IMG/VR virus record: IMGVR_UViG_3300037833_000028
Location: 1 to 45,485 of that record
Reading direction: 5' to 3' (one strand)
DNA length: 45,485 nucleotides
Origin: a virus
Positions 9,029 through 39,017 of the stretch are shown piece after piece. Each line of letters begins with the position of its first letter. Within the stretch, counting starts at the first letter, position 1. Made by a program: the position numbers and the translations under genes. The notes beneath the pieces were generated by a model that was not told where the DNA came from, searched no databases, and saw only the letters and a program-made list of their open reading frames with translations.

Positions 9029-9072
9029 GTTTCTAGATTAAGAAATTAATCATTCTTGAAAACTAAGGAGAA

Positions 9073-9103
9073 GGCTTGAACGGTTATTTGAATTCGTAGC
9101 AGA
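9073..9103. repeat. 31-bp direct repeat, copy 2
   Basis: Perfect match in the same orientation to 1679-1709. Here it lies in the predicted leader of the early transcript. Its first nine bases (GGCTTGAAC, 9073-9081) are also inverted at 9115-9123 (GTTCAAGCC), so the leader can fold a hairpin enclosing the repeat. The flanks of the two copies differ, so the identity ends sharply. Confidence 0.8.
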
Positions 9104-10340: not shown

Positions 10341-10541
10341 ATGGCAAAACACTGGTGCGAACAATGCGGGAGACACGCCTTGTTTTTCCGGCGAATTACG
10401 GGACGCGGGAAGCGGCACGGTCAAATAAAGGTCAGCGCCGATTTGCGCCACACGCTCTGCAAACGATGTAACGACAGTCTTTTTCAGTCGGAAAAACAGA
10501 AAGAGAAATTCAGTTTTCAAACAGCAAATCGCATTCAGTAA
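10341..10541 (+). CDS. Small zinc-ribbon protein
   Basis: 66 residues with two Cys pairs, CEQC (6-9) and CKRC (40-43), at a spacing that suits a one-zinc ribbon. The surrounding residues are strongly basic (RRITGRGKRHGQIK), so nucleic acid binding is plausible. AAGAGG lies 5 bases before the ATG. Phage early regions often hold such small zinc proteins; no specific role can be given. Confidence 0.65.
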   Translation: MAKHWCEQCGRHALFFRRITGRGKRHGQIKVSADLRHTLCKRCNDSLFQSEKQKEKFSFQTANRIQ

Positions 10542-10749: not shown

Positions 10750-11226
10750 ATGCAGAAAGGACACGAAATAGTCAAAAAGGTTCTCGATAAGTTTCCGGCA
10801 CTGTCGGAAGAGCTTCATCGCCTTTTTAAGAAATCCGCCGTTTGGTATCGCTCGCACGGCTACCCGCTGCGCAAAGACGATCCGCTTCAAAACGGCAATT
10901 TGTCGGCAGTCGATCATCTTTTGCGAATGGCTGACGAATACGAAGCGGCGATGCCCGGAGCCGGTCAGGAACTCGGCGAACAGCTAGCCGCCGAATTTAA
11001 GGCGCGTTACAGATGCCGCAACCAGCCGTGCGACGACAGAGCGATCAGGCTCAATTTAACGACCGAGTTTTATCAGGCGATGCGCGAAATAGATAAAGCG
11101 GATTTATCCGAGCAGTCGGAACTGCAACTCGCCCGAACCGACAAAGAATTGTCGGAAATAGAAAAAGCGATTGGAGATGCCCGCGCCCACGTTCGGGCGG
11201 AATGGCGCGCGAAACAGGCAAGTTAA
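10750..11226 (+). CDS. Hypothetical early protein, helical
   Basis: 158 residues from the ATG at 10750 (MQKGHEIVKKVLDKFPALSEEL). The frame is open back to a TTG at 10552, but that part crosses the hairpin pair and looks non-coding. The protein is mostly helical, with Cys in YRCRNQPCDD (about 103-111) and a charged C-terminal coiled-coil-like stretch (LARTDKELSEIEKAIGDARAHVRAEW). No family is recognised. It ends 5 bases before the next gene's start, so they are co-transcribed. Confidence 0.6.
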   Translation: MQKGHEIVKKVLDKFPALSEELHRLFKKSAVWYRSHGYPLRKDDPLQNGNLSAVDHLLRMADEYEAAMPGAGQELGEQLAAEFKARYRCRNQPCDDRAIRLNLTTEFYQAMREIDKADLSEQSELQLARTDKELSEIEKAIGDARAHVRAEWRAKQAS

Positions 11227-11231
11227 TTTCA

Positions 11232-11555
11232 ATGACGGCGACGGAACTTTCATTGCAGGAACAAATCAACGAGCTTAAACGGCTGATAGTTGAAACGCGC
11301 CTGCCGGATGAGGCGATAGTCGATGCGAATTACGTCGCGCAGCTCTTCGGCATCACGCCCGAAGCCGTTATCAGAAAGCGTTTCGGGACTGACAAAATCC
11401 GCCGCGTCCGCGAAAAGCCCGTCGGTTTCCGCAAAGGCGACGTGCACAAAGTTTTGAAGGATTTGACCAGACCGGCGGCGGAAGTGGCGGCGGAAGCGAT
11501 AGCGAAAGCCAAACCGAGAAAACGCTCGATTATTACGAAACAGGTGAAACGATGA
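11232..11555 (+). CDS. Putative DNA-binding protein (winged helix-like)
   Basis: 107 residues from the ATG at 11232; an in-frame ATG at 11202 would overlap the previous gene. After a short helix, residues about 26-70 (DEAIVDANYVAQLFGITPEAVIRKRFG...VREKPVGFRKGDVHKVL) match the helix-turn-helix plus wing layout of excisionase/MerR-like phage proteins. The C-terminus is very basic (KAKPRKRSIITKQVKR). It could be a second regulator or a replication accessory. The stop overlaps the next start as ATGA. Confidence 0.6.
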   Translation: MTATELSLQEQINELKRLIVETRLPDEAIVDANYVAQLFGITPEAVIRKRFGTDKIRRVREKPVGFRKGDVHKVLKDLTRPAAEVAAEAIAKAKPRKRSIITKQVKR

Positions 11556-11830
11556 TTTATAAATTTTCCGAAGTCGAGCGATTAATGAAAGCCGCCGATT
11601 TCAGACACGACGAGATCGGCATTGACCGCAGGATGATCGAGAGCTATTCGTGCCGCAGATGCCGCGCGTATCTCGAATATAAGGCTTATTCAAACGCTTA
11701 CGACACGCTGGAATTTGGCGTTTGTCGGCAGTGCAACACGGCGCGACATTTCTTTACGAATTCGCAGTTACTCGCGGAGCTGAAACAACGATTTTCGAGA
11801 AGGGAAATGGTAGCCGAGACAGGCAAATAA
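11552..11830 (+). CDS. Zinc-ribbon protein
   Basis: 92 residues. CRRC (34-37) and CRQC (58-61) form a likely zinc ribbon, with CRAYLEYKAYSNAY between them. The C-terminal helix carries charged residues (LAELKQRFSRREM). It starts by a 4-base overlap (ATGA) with the upstream DNA-binding gene, so translation is coupled. Role unknown; possibly nucleic acid or protein binding. Confidence 0.65.
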   Translation: MIYKFSEVERLMKAADFRHDEIGIDRRMIESYSCRRCRAYLEYKAYSNAYDTLEFGVCRQCNTARHFFTNSQLLAELKQRFSRREMVAETGK

Positions 11831-18034: not shown

Positions 18035-18259
18035 ATGGCTGAAAAAAAGGTGATGAAATGTAAACACACGCTTTCCGGCACGAATATCAAGTGCAATACG
18101 GAACTGTGCGAAACCGACGGAGTTTCCGTTTTCGTTCCGACGGGAAACGGCGGCGAGCTTGAAATTACTCCGACCAGAGGCGGCGACGCGAAACTGATTT
18201 GCCCGAACCCGAAATGCAAAGGGAGAACAGTCTGGTATCGAGCGCGAAACAGATTTTGA
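18035..18259 (+). CDS. Zinc-ribbon protein
   Basis: 74 residues. Cys9, Cys20 and Cys25 in the N-terminal half, then CPNPKC (residues 57-62), followed by GRTVWYRARNRF. The cysteines suggest a two-knuckle zinc ribbon. An internal ATG at 18053 is possible, but its upstream GG is too close. It is the last gene of the early plus-strand run and its stop lies at the left end of the reverse-strand SnoaL cassette. Confidence 0.6.
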   Translation: MAEKKVMKCKHTLSGTNIKCNTELCETDGVSVFVPTGNGGELEITPTRGGDAKLICPNPKCKGRTVWYRARNRF

Positions 18260-18769
18260 GTAGTGGGTCAGCTTGAAATAAATTAAAATCAGATATTGAG
18301 ATAGTATCTGATTGCCAGTAGCTAGAACATTGTATTATCGTTTTCCGATTCGTCAGGAATAAATTGCAAAACGTCCCAATGCTCAACAATCTTTCCGTTT
18401 TCATCCAGTCTAAAAATGTCGATGGCAGCCCAGTCGCCTGACGTTTGCCATTCCTGAAAGCAATGGAGAACGACGAAGTTTCCTTCGGCAATCGCACGTT
18501 TGAAATGAACACGCTTGTCCGGATATTCGCTTGCCTTTTGTTCAAAATACTCGATAAAGCCTTCCTTACCGTCAGGAACCAGCGGATTATGCTGAATATA
18601 AACATCGCCGACATATTTTGCGATGGCATCGCGTGGCTTGGATTGGTTAAACATCAAATCGTAAAATGCAATAACAGTTTCTTTGTTTCGCTCTAATTGT
18701 TCCATTTTAATCAACTCTCCTAACTATTATTATGGTTTTGTTGGATTAAAATTCAAATTGACCCACTAC
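18260..18769. mobile_element. Inverted-repeat-bounded cargo cassette
   Basis: GTAGTGGGTCA (18260-18270) is repeated as its exact complement at 18759-18769, and similarity continues inward imperfectly (TTGAA and TTAAAAT-like words). The 510-bp unit holds only the reverse-strand SnoaL-like gene with its own promoter. A direct word, GCTTGAAATAA, occurs at 18271-18281 and just outside the right end at 18778-18788. No transposase is present. It could be a non-autonomous insertion or a gene with palindromic control sites. Confidence 0.4.
18322..18705 (-). CDS. SnoaL-like (NTF2-fold) cargo protein
   Basis: 127 residues from the ATG at 18705, which has GGAGAG about 10 bases ahead. The pattern [44 protein letters not shown], then [15 protein letters not shown] and [22 protein letters not shown], matches the SnoaL-like/nuclear transport factor 2 superfamily, typical of a one-domain cyclase-like or binding protein. 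A minus-strand promoter is visible: TTGAAT at 18751-18756 and CATAAT at 18729-18734. It is the only reverse gene in this region, so it is probably lysogenic cargo expressed from its own promoter. The substrate is unknown. Confidence 0.8.
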
Positions 18770-18779
18770 CAAATTTTGC

Positions 18780-18808
18780 TTGAAATAATCGGATAAATAG
18801 CTTAAAGT
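18780..18808 (+). promoter_or_regulatory. Candidate promoter for the first late block
   Basis: TTGAAA (18780-18785) and TAAAGT (18803-18808) with a 17-base spacer. The predicted start point (about 18815) lies directly ahead of the conserved leader at 18819-18907. A similar promoter-leader order exists at 30602-30757. The -10 matches the consensus at 4 of 6. Confidence 0.4.
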
Positions 18809-18818
18809 TTGAACTGAA

Positions 18819-18907
18819 AATTTTGTTGGGCGCTTCTCGCCCGAAACCGAGAGTTAAACGCCTCGAAGCTAAGGATAAAAACCTGTGCTTCGAGGCGTTT
18901 TCGTTTT
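18819..18907 (+). promoter_or_regulatory. Conserved structured leader with terminator, copy 1
   Basis: AATTTTG.TGGGCGC..TTCTCGCCCGAA is shared with 30665-30757. A 5-bp hairpin (18828-18832 with 18838-18842) comes first, then a linker ending GAGTT. A perfect 14-bp stem follows (18856-18869 with 18887-18900, 17-base loop), then a T tract (18898-18907). The stem sequence differs wholly from copy 2 while its length is the same. TCTCG (18835-18839) could alternatively pair with CGAGA (18848-18852), which would open the first hairpin. The gene starts 26 bases later. The layout suggests an attenuator or antitermination leader. Confidence 0.6.
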
Positions 18908-18932: not shown

Positions 18933-20288
18933 ATGACGTGGCGAATCGCAAAATCATTACTCAAACTTCGTGAGCAAATTAATACTGCGTTTCCTGACCG
19001 CCTGCGAATCAGCGACGGCGGTATCGGCGATGCAGCTCACGCTTCAAGAAATTCAGATCATAATCCATGGGTCCGCGACTCGAAAGGTCAGCCGATTGTC
19101 ACAGCCATCGATATTACGCACGATCCGGATTTTAACGGGATTGATTGCCACCGTCTTGCCGAAGCTCTCAGTAAATCTGCCGACCCGCGCATTAAATATC
19201 TGATTTGGGACCGGAAAATCACAACCAGAATGAGCGGCGGCGGCTTCGGCTGGAAAAAATACAACGGTTCGAATCCGCACACGCAACATCTGCATATTTC
19301 CGTTATCGACAGAGAGTTTTTATTCGATTCAGACAAATCGTGGAATATAGGGTCCGCTTTGACGCCGAATTCGGCTAAGCCCGCCGCTCCGAAAGTGCGC
19401 GATTTGAAATCAGGCGACCAGGGCGCAGACGTTCAAAGTTTGCAGCGGCGGCTGGCATCTCTCGGTTACTTGCAGCCGAATGATGCAGACGGTTTCTTCG
19501 GGACGAAAACGCGCAGTGCCGTGATGTTTTTCCAAAAGGAAGCCGGACTTCGCGCTGACGGCATCGTCGGCAATAACACGCGCCGCGCATTGATGCTTGA
19601 TGTCAAAGACGAAGAAATAAAGCTCGAGATTCCAACAGTTTCGGCGGCTTCTCCTACAAGCACAGGCAATCTGGCTATTAACCCAACAGTCGATCCTGCT
19701 AATTCATCTGCTACTCAGCCGCCGAATCCGCCTGTCGAGATGGATGAGGGAGAGCGACCGGCAAATTATAAGGAAATTCAATACGCCAATGCGCAGCCGG
19801 AACTCGTCACACCAGTCATTCAGGCTAAAGCCGAAGAGACCAAACCGGATGAAGGCATTGCGGCAAAAGCGGCGACGGCTTATGACTGGGTGAGCGGCAG
19901 AATTTTAGCTCTTCCGCCGGCAATCGGAGCCGCGATTTTAGGTTTCTGGAACTGGATGAAAAGCGCCGACGCGACTTTGACCATCGCGTTCTTTTCAGCG
20001 TCGGGCATTATCGGCATTACTTATTTGATTCTGTATATGCACAGAAAAAATAAGAAGCTGATGAACGAACACGAATTGGCGAAAGAGCAGGAAATCACGA
20101 AACGGCAGCGCGAGCAGCAAGCGCACGAAATTACGAAAATCCAAATGGAATCGGCGATGCGGCGCGACTTGAACACAGTCGCCGTCGTGCCGAAACCGCT
20201 TGAAAATTCGGATTCGCCTGATACTGAAAATTTAGGTGTTCCGGCACAGCAGTTTCGGCAAATGAGATTTTTGGGCGAATACAAATGA
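18933..20288 (+). CDS. Endolysin: M15-like peptidase, PG-binding domain and C-terminal membrane segments
   Basis: 451 residues. Residues 1-135 resemble a VanY/M15-type peptidase, with His43 (SDHNP), Asp60 (TAIDITHD) and His119/121 (QHLHISV) as likely zinc ligands. Residues about 153-222 are a peptidoglycan-binding domain (DLKSGDQGADVQSLQRRL, FGTKTRSAVMFFQ). A disordered Pro/Ser linker follows. Two hydrophobic segments (about 325-342 and 348-369) come next, then a long charged coiled-coil-like tail. It would cut the cell wall during lysis. The membrane part is unusual for a lysin and may anchor it or act as a holin. It is the first gene after the conserved leader. Confidence 0.8.
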   Translation: MTWRIAKSLLKLREQINTAFPDRLRISDGGIGDAAHASRNSDHNPWVRDSKGQPIVTAIDITHDPDFNGIDCHRLAEALSKSADPRIKYLIWDRKITTRMSGGGFGWKKYNGSNPHTQHLHISVIDREFLFDSDKSWNIGSALTPNSAKPAAPKVRDLKSGDQGADVQSLQRRLASLGYLQPNDADGFFGTKTRSAVMFFQKEAGLRADGIVGNNTRRALMLDVKDEEIKLEIPTVSAASPTSTGNLAINPTVDPANSSATQPPNPPVEMDEGERPANYKEIQYANAQPELVTPVIQAKAEETKPDEGIAAKAATAYDWVSGRILALPPAIGAAILGFWNWMKSADATLTIAFFSASGIIGITYLILYMHRKNKKLMNEHELAKEQEITKRQREQQAHEITKIQMESAMRRDLNTVAVVPKPLENSDSPDTENLGVPAQQFRQMRFLGEYK

Positions 20289-27213: not shown

Positions 27214-27399
27214 ATGAGCGAAACAATCCAAATCCCAGAAGCGGCGGCGGCTGAAGCTCCGGCAGCATTGACCGATGAAGAAACCTTAAACGCGACAGTG
27301 ATTTGTTTCCGGCTCGGCAAGCACGTTGATTACGGGATCGGCAATTTAATTCGCTGCGCACGATGCGGGAAGATAATTTATCGAGGGGAAAATAAATAG
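27214..27399 (+). CDS. Small protein with single CxxC
   Basis: 61 residues. An Ala/Glu-rich disordered N-terminus (ETIQIPEAAAAEAPAAL) precedes CARCGKIIYRG at the end (Cys48 and Cys51), half of a zinc ribbon. Cys31 lies further upstream. It starts directly after a TAG stop. It is the last gene before the iteron repeats; its final codons lie within the first repeat. Confidence 0.55.
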   Translation: MSETIQIPEAAAAEAPAALTDEETLNATVICFRLGKHVDYGIGNLIRCARCGKIIYRGENK

Positions 27400-27462
27400 G
27401 TAGTTTTGACTCCTACAAGTATGTAGTTTTGATTTCCCTAAATAGGTAGTTTTGACTCTGAA
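27394..27462. repeat. Three 23-bp iterons upstream of the terminase genes
   Basis: Three units begin at 27394, 27417 and 27440, exactly 23 bases apart. The shared core is AxxTAxGTAGTTTTGAxT; units 1 and 3 are the same over 19 bases (AAATAGGTAGTTTTGACTC) and unit 2 has five changes. Two helical turns is a spacing suited to repeated protein binding on one DNA face. The position just ahead of the small terminase gene suggests a packaging (pac/cos) recognition site or an operator. Confidence 0.7.
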
Positions 27463-29822: not shown

Positions 29823-29858
29823 AAAAGGCTGAGAATAAATTTCAAATCTCAGCCTTTT
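29823..29858. terminator. Bidirectional terminator between convergent genes
   Basis: AAAAGGCTGAGA (29823-29834) pairs perfectly with 29847-29858. A precedes it and T follows, so it can stop transcription from both sides. It lies between the plus-strand gene ending at 29794 and the minus-strand cargo gene ending at 29861. Confidence 0.8.
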
Positions 29859-29860
29859 AG

Positions 29861-30481
29861 TTATTTTAAGTCGGACTGCCAAACAGAACCGTCATCGTAT
29901 TGAACACTTTTGATATTTATTTGCTCAATATACGATTCTGATGAATCCTTACCTGCATTTTTTGCGTTGACTACGCGAACGGGAGGAGCCGGAAACTTTG
30001 CTGTTAACTTTTCAGTTTCATCTTTTTTAAGACGTGTTTTGCTCGTAAATGTGTGTTTTCCTACCTCTTGTTTTGAAGTTGGGTCAAGGAATATGTACTC
30101 CCATGCGATAATTCTAATCGTCTTTGATCCAGTGTTACGAACTTTTATTTGATAATTATAAACTCTTGAAATTTCCGTAGTAATGGTTGTCGGATTTGTT
30201 TCTACAGTATTTTTCGCAGTCGTTGGCAGCGGTTCTTCCGGTAAGCCTCGTTGTTTTCTAATCACGTTATCTTGAATAGTCTGTTTTCGATCTTTCATTA
30301 GCTGATTGGTTTCGTTGTTTGGCTGAAATGGGTCTGTGTCAAGCATACCGCCGGAAGAACTGGTTGAGTCGTGATTCCATTTTTTCTCTAATACTTGAAC
30401 AGGAGACGAAGCGGATAAAGTCTGAGCCGAAGTTTGTGTCAGCAGCAGAGCCAAAAACATTAGTAGAAATACATATTTCAT
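29861..30481 (-). CDS. Exported cargo protein, unknown function
   Basis: 207 residues from the ATG at 30481, with AAAGAGG about 8 bases ahead. The longer frame to 30607 lacks this. Signal peptide MKYVFLLMFLALLLTQTSAQ. The mature C-terminal half (YNYQIKVRNTGSKTIRIIAWEYIFLDPTSKQEVGKHTF...VRVVNAKNAGKD...VQYDDGSVWQS) is a beta-sandwich-like pattern that I associate with exported proteins of Acidobacteriota. It faces the opposite way to the surrounding virion genes, as expected of lysogenic cargo. Confidence 0.7.
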   Translation of the reverse strand: MKYVFLLMFLALLLTQTSAQTLSASSPVQVLEKKWNHDSTSSSGGMLDTDPFQPNNETNQLMKDRKQTIQDNVIRKQRGLPEEPLPTTAKNTVETNPTTITTEISRVYNYQIKVRNTGSKTIRIIAWEYIFLDPTSKQEVGKHTFTSKTRLKKDETEKLTAKFPAPPVRVVNAKNAGKDSSESYIEQINIKSVQYDDGSVWQSDLK

Positions 30482-30601
30482 AGTTAAACCTCTTTTTTGA
30501 TTTTCACTATCCAGCATGAAGGAAATCTTATACCTGTTTAAGTAATTGGGCAAGATTTTTTGAATTTTATCATCAAATTTAGTTGCATACGCAAAATCTT
30601 G

Positions 30602-30630
30602 TTGCATTTAAGCAGATAATCGTTTACATT
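30602..30630 (+). promoter_or_regulatory. Candidate promoter for the head/tail block
   Basis: TTGCAT (30602-30607) and TACATT (30625-30630), 17-base spacer. The start point would fall near 30637, about 28 bases before the conserved leader. No gene occupies 30482-30765, which otherwise holds this promoter and the leader. Confidence 0.4.
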
Positions 30631-30664
30631 TTCAATAGAAATCAGCACGTTGTCTGATTTCACT

Positions 30665-30757
30665 AATTTTGCTGGGCGCATTCTCGCCCGAACCTATCGA
30701 GTTAAGCGCGGTAGAGATTCACAAACAAGTGTTTCTCTACCGCGCTTTTTATTTTTC
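30665..30757 (+). promoter_or_regulatory. Conserved structured leader with terminator, copy 2
   Basis: The 5' part repeats copy 1 (AATTTTGCTGGGCGC, then TTCTCGCCCGAA). First hairpin: 30674-30678 with 30685-30689. Main stem: 30704-30717 with 30734-30747, 14 perfect pairs and a 16-base loop, then T-rich DNA to 30756. The stem has no sequence similarity to copy 1. CTCG (30683-30686) can pair with CGAG (30698-30701) as in copy 1. The portal gene starts 9 bases later. Confidence 0.6.
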
Positions 30758-30765
30758 TACGTTAA

Positions 30766-32133
30766 ATGCTGCAAACCGCGACCGCGCCAAAAGAATTAAC
30801 CGATACCGAGCTGCAAAACGAATATGTCAGCGGCGGCGGAGGTTACGCGTCTATCACGCTCTCGCTCGAATCGGTTGACCGGCTGCGAAACAATCTGACG
30901 GCTCAAACCAGAGCGGCGATGCGCTATGACTCGGAAGTCGAATCATCGGTCGAATTTCTGCTCGATGCCGTGTTCGCCGACGGAATTGCGCCAGTGCCGG
31001 TTATTACCGACGATGAAGACGAAGAATTCGCGCTCTCGAAAGAAATCGCTGATTTTGTGGCGAAAGCGACCGGCGGCGACACTCCGCGCACGCTGGCTTC
31101 AGTGGTTCGCGAAGTTGCTCGTGATGCTTTTTATTCCGGCGTGAAGACAGGCGAGATTGTTTTGAAAGTCGCCGATAATGGCAATTTAATTTTAGACCGC
31201 GTTAATCCTAAACCTAATTCATCCGTGTCGTTCGTCTGCGACCGCTTCAATAATGTTCTCGGTTTGACAAGCTGGAACCGCAATTACTCGATCACCGAAA
31301 TTGTCGCAAAACAGGACGAAATTATTCCGCGCGAAAAGTTTCTTATTATTCAGTTCGAACTAGAAGACAATCACCCGGGCGGCGTGTCGAAAATCCGCGC
31401 CGCTTACGATGATTGGTGCGATAAAAAGCTGACCCGCGATCAATACAAGGAATGGCGGCGGACTTCTGCAATTCCGAAGAAAGTCGGCATTACCCATCAA
31501 GGCGCAACGGAGCGAAAAGTTTTCGGAGCTGACGGGAAACCTAAAATGAACGGCAGCATTCCCGAAACAGTTTCGCCGCAAAAGGATATGCTCACCGCGC
31601 TCGAAGGATTCGCTAACAATTCGAGCGTAGCAGTTCCGCATTCCGCCGATGTTAAACAGCTCGAAGTGCAGGGAACCGGCGAACAGTTCGTCAAAGCTCT
31701 AAAATACAACAATTCAGGTATTCGCAAAGCCATTCTTGGAGATTCCGTTTCGACCGGCGAAGACGATAAAGGTGTCAAAGCGGCAAAAGAGGTCTCGATG
31801 GATGTCGTCAATTTGCGCATCAAGTTCACTAAAAACACCATTGCCGATGCAGTCCGGCGCGACGTTTACCGGCTTTTAACAGTCGTCAATTTCGGAGCGG
31901 ATAAAGTCCATTTGACGCCGCGCTGCTCGCTCGGAGACACCGAACGCCGAGACTGGGAAGCAACGCTGAATGCGCTCTCGACAGCCGGATGGGAAATGAC
32001 CGACGAACAAATGCGCGAAGGCGACGTGATCGCCGGATTCACGCCGCGCGATAAGAATTGGAAGCGCGAACCGGAACCAAAGCCGCAGCCGCCGATTGAA
32101 GATGCGGTTGCGGGCGCGGGAGAAGAGGAATAA
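30766..32133 (+). CDS. Portal protein
   Basis: 455 residues. The pattern LTAQTRAAMRYDSEVESSVEFLLDAVFADG, VRDAFYSGVKTGEIVLK, RVNPKPNSSVSFVCDRF and the later EDNHPGGVSKIRAAYDDW is that of phage portal proteins of the DUF935/SPP1-like kind. The dodecameric portal is the DNA gate of the head. The C-terminus is Glu/Pro-rich. The ATG has no ribosome-binding site and lies 9 bases after the T tract of the leader. The next gene starts directly after the stop. Confidence 0.85.
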   Translation: MLQTATAPKELTDTELQNEYVSGGGGYASITLSLESVDRLRNNLTAQTRAAMRYDSEVESSVEFLLDAVFADGIAPVPVITDDEDEEFALSKEIADFVAKATGGDTPRTLASVVREVARDAFYSGVKTGEIVLKVADNGNLILDRVNPKPNSSVSFVCDRFNNVLGLTSWNRNYSITEIVAKQDEIIPREKFLIIQFELEDNHPGGVSKIRAAYDDWCDKKLTRDQYKEWRRTSAIPKKVGITHQGATERKVFGADGKPKMNGSIPETVSPQKDMLTALEGFANNSSVAVPHSADVKQLEVQGTGEQFVKALKYNNSGIRKAILGDSVSTGEDDKGVKAAKEVSMDVVNLRIKFTKNTIADAVRRDVYRLLTVVNFGADKVHLTPRCSLGDTERRDWEATLNALSTAGWEMTDEQMREGDVIAGFTPRDKNWKREPEPKPQPPIEDAVAGAGEEE

Positions 32134-34197: not shown

Positions 34198-35349
34198 ATG
34201 GATCCAAGAGAATTATTAAGCGCAGTGCGTGTTACCAAACTGATGCGTTCGCTGCAGGACTTACGCGGAATTCCCGGTAAGTTAGTCAATCTTCGACGCA
34301 CGCCGGTCATCCCGGCTGCCGAAAGTGAAATTATGGCGCAGTTTCAGGGTCAAATCCTGATCGCTGACTTAATCGCCGACGGTCAGCGCGCGGGCGTTTA
34401 TTCCGCCGGAAAAATGGCGCTGATCGGAAACAAAGTGCCGAACCTTAAAATCGGCGCCGCGCTTAATCAGGATCAGCTTAATCAGTTGATGACCGCGATT
34501 GCAGGAGTCGAGGTGGCTGATAATCTTTTCCCGACGACCGAAAGTCGCATCGTTGACAATCTGCGGATGGGCGTCTCCTACCGGATGGAAGCATTAATCG
34601 TCGCCGCCAAAATCGGCGATTATTCGTATGACCGTCTCGGCATCAAGCTCGAAGGCGTTAATTTCGGAATGCCGGCGGATTTGAAGATCACCATTGCTGA
34701 CGAATGGACGGATTCGGCGAACGCCAAGCCTGTTTCCGACATTATGCTCGCGAAACGCATCGGTTCGGTTAAATACGGCATCGTTTACGACCGCATCGTG
34801 ATGACGCTTTCGGCGTTCAACGCGATGATCGCGACGACCGAGTTTCAAAATAAATCGCGCACGTATCTCGCGCCGAACGTTTCGTTCACCAATCTGAACG
34901 GCGCCGACACGGAATTTCAGCGCAATCTGGCGACGAACGTTCTCGGCGTCCGCGAGATTGAGATCAATGACGCGCGATTCTGGCAGGAAGGCTTGAACGG
35001 TTCGCTCTCCAGCGCGCCGTTTGTGCCGAACAACAAAGTGATTCTCGAATCTTCGCAAAATGATAATGATGCGTCGGCGCTCGATTTCGCCAACGGCGTC
35101 GTCACCGAAGCGCTCATTTCCAATATGCCGGGATCGAAGATTCGTGGGCAGTTGCCTTTGAACGCACGAGGTCCGGTCGGCTATCAAACCGCTGAAGACA
35201 ATCCGCCGTCCGCCACATACTGGGGCGTCGGTCGCGGCTTCCCGCGTCGCCATTTGCGCCAACTGACGGCTTGCTTAACGGTAGCGCCGGATTCGGGCAC
35301 GGGTTCGATCGAAGAAACGATTGATTTCGCGGAAATTCCGTTCAGCTAA
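34198..35349 (+). CDS. Major capsid protein (E-type)
   Basis: 383 residues. The N-terminal part (ELLSAVRVTKLMRSLQDLRGIPGKLVNLRRTPVIPAAESEIMAQFQG) is long and helical. The central region includes LPFTTESRIVDNLRMG-like and GIVYDRIVMTLSAFNAMIATTEF patterns, as in HK97-fold capsid proteins of the lambda-E group. It follows protease, scaffold and decoration genes in the standard order. A hairpin after the stop may limit downstream transcription, so capsid is made in excess. Confidence 0.85.
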   Translation: MDPRELLSAVRVTKLMRSLQDLRGIPGKLVNLRRTPVIPAAESEIMAQFQGQILIADLIADGQRAGVYSAGKMALIGNKVPNLKIGAALNQDQLNQLMTAIAGVEVADNLFPTTESRIVDNLRMGVSYRMEALIVAAKIGDYSYDRLGIKLEGVNFGMPADLKITIADEWTDSANAKPVSDIMLAKRIGSVKYGIVYDRIVMTLSAFNAMIATTEFQNKSRTYLAPNVSFTNLNGADTEFQRNLATNVLGVREIEINDARFWQEGLNGSLSSAPFVPNNKVILESSQNDNDASALDFANGVVTEALISNMPGSKIRGQLPLNARGPVGYQTAEDNPPSATYWGVGRGFPRRHLRQLTACLTVAPDSGTGSIEETIDFAEIPFS

Positions 35350-35365
35350 AACGGCGTGAGTCATG

Positions 35366-35410
35366 AGCAGCGGGAAATTTAACAGCTTCCCGCTGCTTTC
35401 CGTTCAATTT
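35366..35410 (+). terminator. Attenuator-like hairpin after the capsid gene
   Basis: AGCAGCGGGAA (35366-35376) pairs perfectly with 35387-35397 (11 bp). A T-rich stretch starts about 8 bases later. It likely reduces transcription between the abundant capsid and the minor head genes. Confidence 0.55.
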
Positions 35411-38301: not shown

Positions 38302-38807
38302 TCAAATTAAACCAGTTATCGCACCGCAATTTAGAAACCAAAGTCCAGTTCGACATCGAGCAGGAAGACGGTACCTTCAAAAAGGAAGATTTCCGCATCG
38401 TCACGCGCGATATGCCGCAGGCAGAATTCGAGAGACTTCTCGATGATGTGAAAATTGAAACCGATGCCGATTTTGCTCCATACAACAAGCGAAGAAATGC
38501 TTACGAAAAAGCTAAAGCCGCATATGAAGCAAAAAAGCAAAAGTTCGACGAAGAAAACGATCCCGAGTCAAACGAGCAGCGAGAATTTACAGAACTGCCG
38601 CCGCCGCCTTTTACTGAAGTTCCGCCTGCGAGCGAGCAACATCGCTTTCACTCGCGCATCGTTGTAAAACTTCCCGATTTGATTGATGACGACGGATCAA
38701 CGCCCGAGCCGACAGTTTCAACATTCGAACGGTTAGGTCAAAACGCCAATCTCGTTATCAACAGAGCTATTTGGCAGCGGCGGACGGAGATTGACCCAAA
38801 AAAGTAA
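38298..38807 (+). CDS. Tail assembly chaperone, short form (G-like)
   Basis: 169 residues from the ATG at 38298. Acidic and helical (FERLLDDVKIETDADFAPYNKRRNAYEKAKAAYEAKKQKF). A Pro-rich stretch and TFERLGQNANLVINRAIWQRR close it. A slippery heptamer lies at its last codons before TAA (38805-38807). Such a gene before the tape measure is the conserved place of lambda G/GT-type chaperones, which hold the tape measure in solution during tail assembly. Confidence 0.75.
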   Translation: MIKLNQLSHRNLETKVQFDIEQEDGTFKKEDFRIVTRDMPQAEFERLLDDVKIETDADFAPYNKRRNAYEKAKAAYEAKKQKFDEENDPESNEQREFTELPPPPFTEVPPASEQHRFHSRIVVKLPDLIDDDGSTPEPTVSTFERLGQNANLVINRAIWQRRTEIDPKK

Positions 38808-39004
38808 CTCAGCTGGGTCATTGGATGGCAGGCAAAACTGACGATGCCGGTATCGAAGAGCCTCACATTCTAATGATTGCCGATGATTACAAAATGCCGG
38901 AATCCGAAGTCAGAGTCAGATTTTCCGACAGCGAAATAGCCCGCATTATGACGCTCTGGCGAGCGCGGAACGTCCGCGACGAAATATTGTATCCGAAAAA
39001 ATAG
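38298..39004 (+). CDS. Tail assembly chaperone, frameshifted long form (GT-like)
   Basis: A -1 shift at A-AAA-AAG (38798-38804) bypasses the TAA and reads on as VTQLGHWMAGKTDDAGIEEP, continuing to LWRARNVRDEILYPKK and TAG at 39002-39004. The downstream frame has no start of its own, no stop for 65 codons and protein-like composition. Programmed frameshifting in this gene is one of the best-conserved features of siphovirus tails. The extension ends 13 bases before the tape measure. Confidence 0.8.
38798..38804 (+). promoter_or_regulatory. Programmed -1 ribosomal frameshift site
   Basis: The zero frame reads CCA AAA AAG TAA, which gives the canonical heptamer A-AAA-AAG directly before the stop. 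A CAGCTG-containing potential stem follows, but no strong pseudoknot was identified. The small product should dominate, with a minor long form, as in lambda. Confidence 0.8.
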
Positions 39005-39017
39005 GGAGTTTTGAGTA

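Follow-up and report, generated by a model that had tools for sequence, protein, structure and literature searches.

Leader RNAs with a covarying alternative hairpin precede late operons in five related phages

What is a hairpin of terminator type doing inside the leader of a late phage operon, just ahead of the first gene? The question is raised by two leaders in the window, by which we mean the whole 45,485-nt stretch of viral DNA analysed here (IMG/VR record IMGVR_UViG_3300037833_000028). A sequence-only reading had described an attenuator-like RNA in two copies, and inspection of the sequence located both of them, at 18819-18907 (leader 1) and 30665-30757 (leader 2). Both copies carry the word AATTTTG-T/C-TGGGCGC-(A)-TTCTCGCCCGAA without a mismatch, and in either form it has no other match in the 45 kb at up to 3 mismatches, with shuffles giving 0.02-0.07 matches. 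Folding z-scores of the two leaders are -5.9 and -7.0, and none of 200 shuffles was equally stable. The RNA had not been recognized as a named family, and we indeed found no match above the gathering threshold among 4227 Rfam families. The features of the two leaders and of the genes that they precede are as follows.

18780..18808, + strand: promoter of leader 1, TTGAAA, 17-bp spacer, TAAAGT; the -10 ends 18 nt before HP1
18826..18844, + strand: hairpin HP1 of leader 1, stem (T)TGGGCG/CGCCCG(A), loop CUUCU
18848..18865, + strand: alternative hairpin AT of leader 1, CGAG-AGTTAAACGC-CTCG, overlapping the terminator 5' arm
18856..18900, + strand: terminator 1, perfect 14 bp, loop 17; GC core about -27 kcal/mol; d-score +8.7
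18898..18907, + strand: T tract of terminator 1, TTTTCGTTTT
18933..20288, + strand: first gene of late block 1, endolysin-like, with a peptidoglycan-binding domain
30602..30630, + strand: promoter of leader 2, TTGCAT, 17-bp spacer, TACATT; the -10 ends 42 nt before HP1
30638..30661, + strand: extra 5' hairpin of leader 2, GAAATCAG...CTGATTTC, absent from leader 1
30673..30690, + strand: HP1 of leader 2, stem TGGGCG/CGCCCG, loop CAUUCU
30694..30714, + strand: AT of leader 2, CTATCG-AGTTAAGCG-CGGTAG
30704..30747, + strand: terminator 2, perfect 14 bp, loop 16, then TTTATTTTT; d-score +43
30766..32133, + strand: first gene of late block 2, portal protein (Mu-type), PF06074, E 1.9e-27

The leader observation is confirmed as real and as belonging to a family: the same leader occurs in five related phages, with nine copies in total. 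Besides the window, with its two copies W1 (leader 1) and W2 (leader 2), these are G1 (IMGVR_UViG_3300049432_000168, a fragment whose portal is 76% identical; two copies), G2 (a prophage on the Pyrinomonadaceae MAG contig JAJQRF010000007.1, the only one of the five tied to this family; two copies), G3 (IMGVR_UViG_3300001798_000017; two copies) and G4 (IMGVR_UViG_3300049847_000717, a 26-kb fragment; one copy). The relatives were reached via the portal and head-protease genes, G3 and G4 via the protease gene and not via the RNA. Where we speak of the first six copies, we mean those known before the three of G3 and G4 turned up. Each copy has one promoter, HP1, a linker, and a terminator hairpin with its U tract, followed by a gene, and the first gene of the late block begins 10-33 nt past the terminator in all nine copies. 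The recurrence of this anatomy in five phages supports the earlier description of an attenuator-like leader ahead of late operons. That description had placed the RNA before the first late block, which is true of leader 1 and is too narrow for the family, since every phage other than G4 has two copies and the constant downstream neighbor is the portal gene, found directly after one leader in 5/5 phages. Downstream of the second copy is an endolysin-like gene in three phages (window, G2 and G3) and, in G1, an 807-aa gene that is probably the tape measure. This second G1 leader (L023 9203-9159, minus strand) lies downstream of a run of ORFs with no counterpart in the window, as if it restarted late transcription after an inserted gene cassette.

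Exactly one TTGnnn-17-TAnnnT site was found in the 110 nt upstream of the leader in 9/9 copies, compared with about 4-12% of trials with shuffled sequence; in two copies, G3b and G4b, the TTGnnn half is a perfect TTGACA. Between the end of the -10 and HP1 lie 16-21 nt in seven copies and 42 or 73 nt in the other two, so HP1 is not fixed relative to the promoter. At the other end of the leader, the perfect 14-bp hairpins reported for the window were confirmed at 18856-18900 and 30704-30747, and in copy 1 the ATG at 18933 follows 26 bases after the end of the T tract. All nine copies have the marks of an intrinsic terminator, that is, GC-rich stems of 12-15 bp and a T tract. In six copies the terminator d-scores range from -13.6 to +43; because both G1 terminators score negative (-5.8, -13.6), termination in G1 may be partial. 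The two window stems had been said to share their length and none of their sequence; the length is indeed the same, but the base AA-CGC is common to both and the upper part alone differs.

These differences between copies preserve pairing. MAFFT misaligned HP1, so we used a structure-guided, N-padded, hand-made alignment of the first six copies (A6), in which 95% of the HP1 and terminator cells are paired and 12 of the 21 pairs changed on both sides; these counts lean towards structure by construction of the alignment, and slid controls drop to 38-51% paired. Covariation of HP1 and terminator together is 0.606 in the first six copies, against 0.189 +/- 0.045 when shuffled and 0.08-0.181 when slid. 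Selection on structure, suspected from the two window copies, is thereby supported, the search for homologs having yielded seven further copies with compensatory changes.

HP1 pairs as drawn in all nine copies despite sequence that differs between phages, and the terminator stems likewise pair throughout the nine. Within a phage it is the same or nearly so, and between phages it is unrelated (stem/loop by phage: GGGCG/CUUCU; GUUCUG/CUUUUU; GCCC/UAAAAUCU; GAUGCCG/CCGAGU). In the window the stem is identical between the copies and the loop differs by one base, in G2 there is one compensatory pair with an identical loop, in G1 a single wobble change, and in G3 the stem is again identical. The loops are CUUCU, CAUUCU, CUUUUU, UUUUUU, UAAAAUCU, CCGAGU and CGGAGU, with one of 16 nt in G4. 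Recent duplication would not by itself account for the identity of HP1, as the upper terminator stems differ between the copies of both the window and G2. A pseudoknot between the HP1 loop and the linker could be drawn in 6/6 copies tested but at shuffle p of 0.05-0.47, and was dropped.

This pattern, shared within and different between phages, is better explained by an RNA-binding factor particular to each phage than by a metabolite. Ligand sensing had been one of the functions suggested from the window, with HP1 then serving as the aptamer and AT and terminator as the expression platform of a riboswitch. The order of aptamer, antiterminator and terminator would be typical, and the short words GYTG and TTAAnCGC are conserved in most copies. 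However, an HP1 whose stem and loop are wholly different from phage to phage does not suit an aptamer, Rfam holds no match, and phage structural genes would be an odd regulon for a metabolite; we consider a riboswitch very improbable. Even less probable is that HP1 is an inverted-repeat DNA operator for a repressor at the late promoters, with the terminator unrelated to it. The phage does encode HTH regulators, and in seven copies HP1 is an inverted repeat just downstream of the promoter, but in two it is shifted to 42-73 nt from the -10, the spacing of its arms differs between the two copies of the window (5 and 6 nt), and most copies contain G-U pairs, which break DNA symmetry and keep an RNA stem. 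An operator would also leave AT unexplained.

The main new result is this conserved alternative hairpin, AT. The sequence-only reading had proposed that HP1 is opened by CTCG/CGAG pairing, a pairing that is not kept in the relatives; the partner of CGAG is instead the CTCG in the 5' arm of the terminator. In 9/9 copies the linker pairs over 4-6 bp with the upper part of that arm, so AT and the terminator are mutually exclusive. AT was found by folding each leader without the terminator 3' arm, and it formed in 6/6 copies then known, with the strands CGAG/CTCG, CTATCG/CGGTAG, GCAAG/CTTGC, GCAAG/CTTGT, ACACG/CGTGT and TCGAG/CTCGA. The later three gave ACAAG/CTTGT and GCAAG/CTTGT in G3 and AGGCGA/TCGCTT in G4. 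Between W1 and W2 the AT strands and the terminator arm have both been altered and pairing is retained. Across the first six copies the pairing holds in 29/30 cells, and three of the five pairs have compensatory changes; a fourth variable pair is broken only in W1. The joint test on these six copies gave p of about 5e-6 with same-register linker shuffles and 1e-4 with column shuffles; the register was picked after the folds were seen and only the joint same-register test is strong, significance per copy being modest when any register is allowed (p 0.01-0.36). AT is a plain stem with a loop of 6-11 nt, and within this loop lies the base of the terminator 5' arm, the stretch of the arm that is conserved in all phages but G4. 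The terminator reaches about -23 to -30 kcal/mol and AT only -1.7 to -5.4, so that AT must be stabilized if it is to form in place of the far stronger hairpin.

We read the leader as a new form of attenuator control, and from the sequences we infer termination as its default, readthrough via AT, and the identity of the acting factor. A host-type sigma70 promoter would start each late block and give a leader RNA of roughly 90-120 nt, which by default would stop at the intrinsic terminator. Alternatively, the linker would pair with the terminator 5' arm to form the small antiterminator hairpin AT. A phage-encoded factor, made late in the early phase, probably recognizes HP1 and the adjoining AT; once it is bound, the terminator could not form and RNA polymerase would enter both late blocks together. 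For this model as a whole (default terminator, readthrough mediated by AT, phage-encoded factor on HP1 and AT) we estimate a probability of roughly two in three.

A hairpin between a gene and its promoter might also have no regulatory role. It could insulate the late genes from transcription that arrives from upstream or protect the 5' end, the U-rich stretch helping ribosomes to bind without a Shine-Dalgarno sequence. Such a sequence is missing at 19 of the 30 gene starts checked, both leader genes included, and minus-strand genes lie just upstream of both window leaders, as would suit an insulator. However, with the predicted promoter upstream of the hairpin and the gene only 10-33 nt downstream, an insulator would shut off the very promoter that serves the late block; in G2 and G3 the leader of the portal gene comes straight after the terminase gene; and the covariation of AT and the shared HP1 would be left unexplained. 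We therefore think a purely non-regulatory hairpin improbable.

A stronger rival is processive antitermination, in which HP1 and AT as a put-like tandem, or a boxB-like HP1, would load a factor or directly modify RNA polymerase so that this and later terminators are ignored, the overlap of AT with the terminator being incidental. The presence of two copies in a phage, each close to the 5' end of a different transcript, a phage-specific hairpin, two stem-loops as in put, and the 16-21 nt between -10 and HP1 in seven copies (42/73 nt in two) would all suit such a device, as would a candidate factor gene located where that of lambda Q would be. Against it, in 9/9 copies AT overlaps the terminator arm, with which it covaries, and a processive device needs neither. 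Further, no boxA of the rRNA type was recognized by eye in the leaders, and no blastn match was found among 50,697 phage records. We regard processive action as unlikely, though less so than the other alternatives.

The known systems help to place the leader between these readings. Lambda Q works without an RNA hairpin, by way of a DNA site at the promoter. The layout at lambda pR' is similar, with a late promoter, a short leader terminator and the regulator gene (here a candidate) directly upstream, but in our leaders RNA helices covary and the promoter distance varies. Among the window proteins scanned, which are part of the ORFs, none matched a Q family in Pfam or PHROG, and Q families are very diverse. 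For an N/nut-type boxA as in lambda, the leaders were compared with the host-family rRNA boxA GATCTTTGAAAAC by eye only, and no conserved match was seen. HK022 put consists of two RNAs of ~70 nt, each with two stem-loops; one RNA lies close to the promoter and the other further along (PMC9378689). Two copies per phage and tandem stem-loops at the transcript 5' end are shared with put, which also overcomes terminators; but put sits on early operons and acts processively, without a dedicated protein, at distant terminators, whereas here the 3' strand of the second hairpin is common with a terminator a few nt away. The leaders had no blastn match at E 1 in the 50,697 phage records, a collection that may or may not include HK022.

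Closer to the proposed mechanism are the ANTAR-responsive leaders (nasF, amiE and eut, with NasR, AmiR and EutV), which have hairpins P1 and P2 with P2 overlapping the terminator 5' arm (PMC3369936, PMC8934654). The likeness lies in the tandem hairpins, of which the first is independent and the second overlaps and excludes the terminator, and in the several leaders per genome that answer to one factor (PMC3369936, PMC8934654). However, ANTAR hairpins have hexaloops with A1 and G4, and ours have loops of 5-16 nt without this signature; our HP1 stems are phage-specific, and late phage genes take the place of catabolic genes. The ANTAR domain (PF03861) is absent from the window, G1, G3 and G4 records, three of which are fragments, and from the G2 genome. 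Given the absence of A1/G4 hexaloops and of an ANTAR domain, the leader would work like an ANTAR leader and is not a member of that class. With BglG/LicT it shares an RNA-binding protein, putative here, that stabilizes an antiterminator overlapping the terminator. The RAT stem of that system has two asymmetric internal loops (PMC3369936), in contrast to the plain 4-6 bp stem and 6-11 nt loop of AT and its separate HP1, and no CAT domain was found among the window proteins scanned against Pfam (part of the ORFs).

More relevant to the proposed trans-acting factor, a small cysteine-rich protein is encoded upstream of leader 1:

18035..18259, + strand: candidate factor, a zinc-ribbon-like protein of 74 aa rich in cysteine; its gene closes the plus-strand early block

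A gene for a small cysteine-rich protein is located just before leader a in the window, in G2 (g2 38473-38736) and in G3 (g3 11151-11354), where the leader starts about 25 nt past the gene. The proteins of the window and G2 share 46% identity (E 2e-13); the G3 protein is weakly related (E 0.001), with CK-x8/9-KC and a second C-x2/4-C in common. The protein had no match in Pfam, PHROGs or NCBIfam, nor, apart from G2, in viral contigs, phages and 162 genomes of the class, and it was not found in the fragment G1. Its predicted structure has a pLDDT of 44, too poor for a structure search. Gene position makes the 74-aa protein the leading candidate for the factor; two other conserved early genes of the window (10341-10541 and 11552-11830) would come next in line. 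Tentatively, small cysteine-rich antiterminators of a family not yet described might operate a P1/antiterminator/terminator late switch, their RNA specificity co-evolving with HP1, a proposal that we hold to be possible but short of probable. If true, each phage would have a private key to its late operons. N, Q and put, the systems compared, rely on processive modification of RNA polymerase, and a late switch that stabilizes a hairpin against one terminator would solve the same problem differently, in phages of a little-studied group of bacteria. The comparison also points to a small protein as a testable candidate factor, and orthogonal RNA-protein pairs might be drawn from the private HP1 sequences. 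Between the early block and leader 1 the window also has a SnoaL-like gene (18322-18714, minus strand) that looks like an inserted accessory gene.

We also searched more widely for the leader and its neighbors. In 118 Pyrinomonadaceae genomes the RNA model recovered only the G2 copies and chromosomal terminator-like hairpins at 31-36 bits, and the best other matches in genomes of the host family include hairpins immediately downstream of genes. The covariance model is rough, in that any good terminator of this kind scores 20-36 bits; the G3 leaders score 25-26 bits, below a reverse-strand G1 terminator at 28.7 bits, so that G3 is included for its position before the portal and endolysin genes, its repetition, promoter and AT, and not for its score. 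A pattern search of viral contigs returned only G1 and four unrelated-looking matches, a portal profile run on 396 genomes of the G2 phylum only G2, and a protein search of phages only a distant Gordonia phage portal. A leader peptide was considered and rejected: leader 2 and the corresponding leader of G1 are spanned by a long open frame, but in G2 the frames are only two or three codons long.

Finally, the window has several other features of note. A hairpin terminator usable on both strands (29823-29858) lies at the end of late block 1 and is faced by a minus-strand gene without an assigned function (29861-30607), just before leader 2. A 12-bp hairpin with a poor T tract (35365-35398) directly follows the gene at 34198-35349, where the next ORF begins, and is possibly an mRNA end or processing site. 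A 34-nt direct repeat, 97% identical between its copies, occurs 7.4 kb apart at 1676-1709 and 9070-9103, close to the integrase and to the point where the plus-strand early block begins. Two copies of the 20-nt repeat TAAATAGGTAGTTTTGACTC share one intergenic stretch (27393-27412 and 27439-27458), with a variant at 38998-39017 directly before the tape-measure ATG and a related copy in phage G3 (G515).
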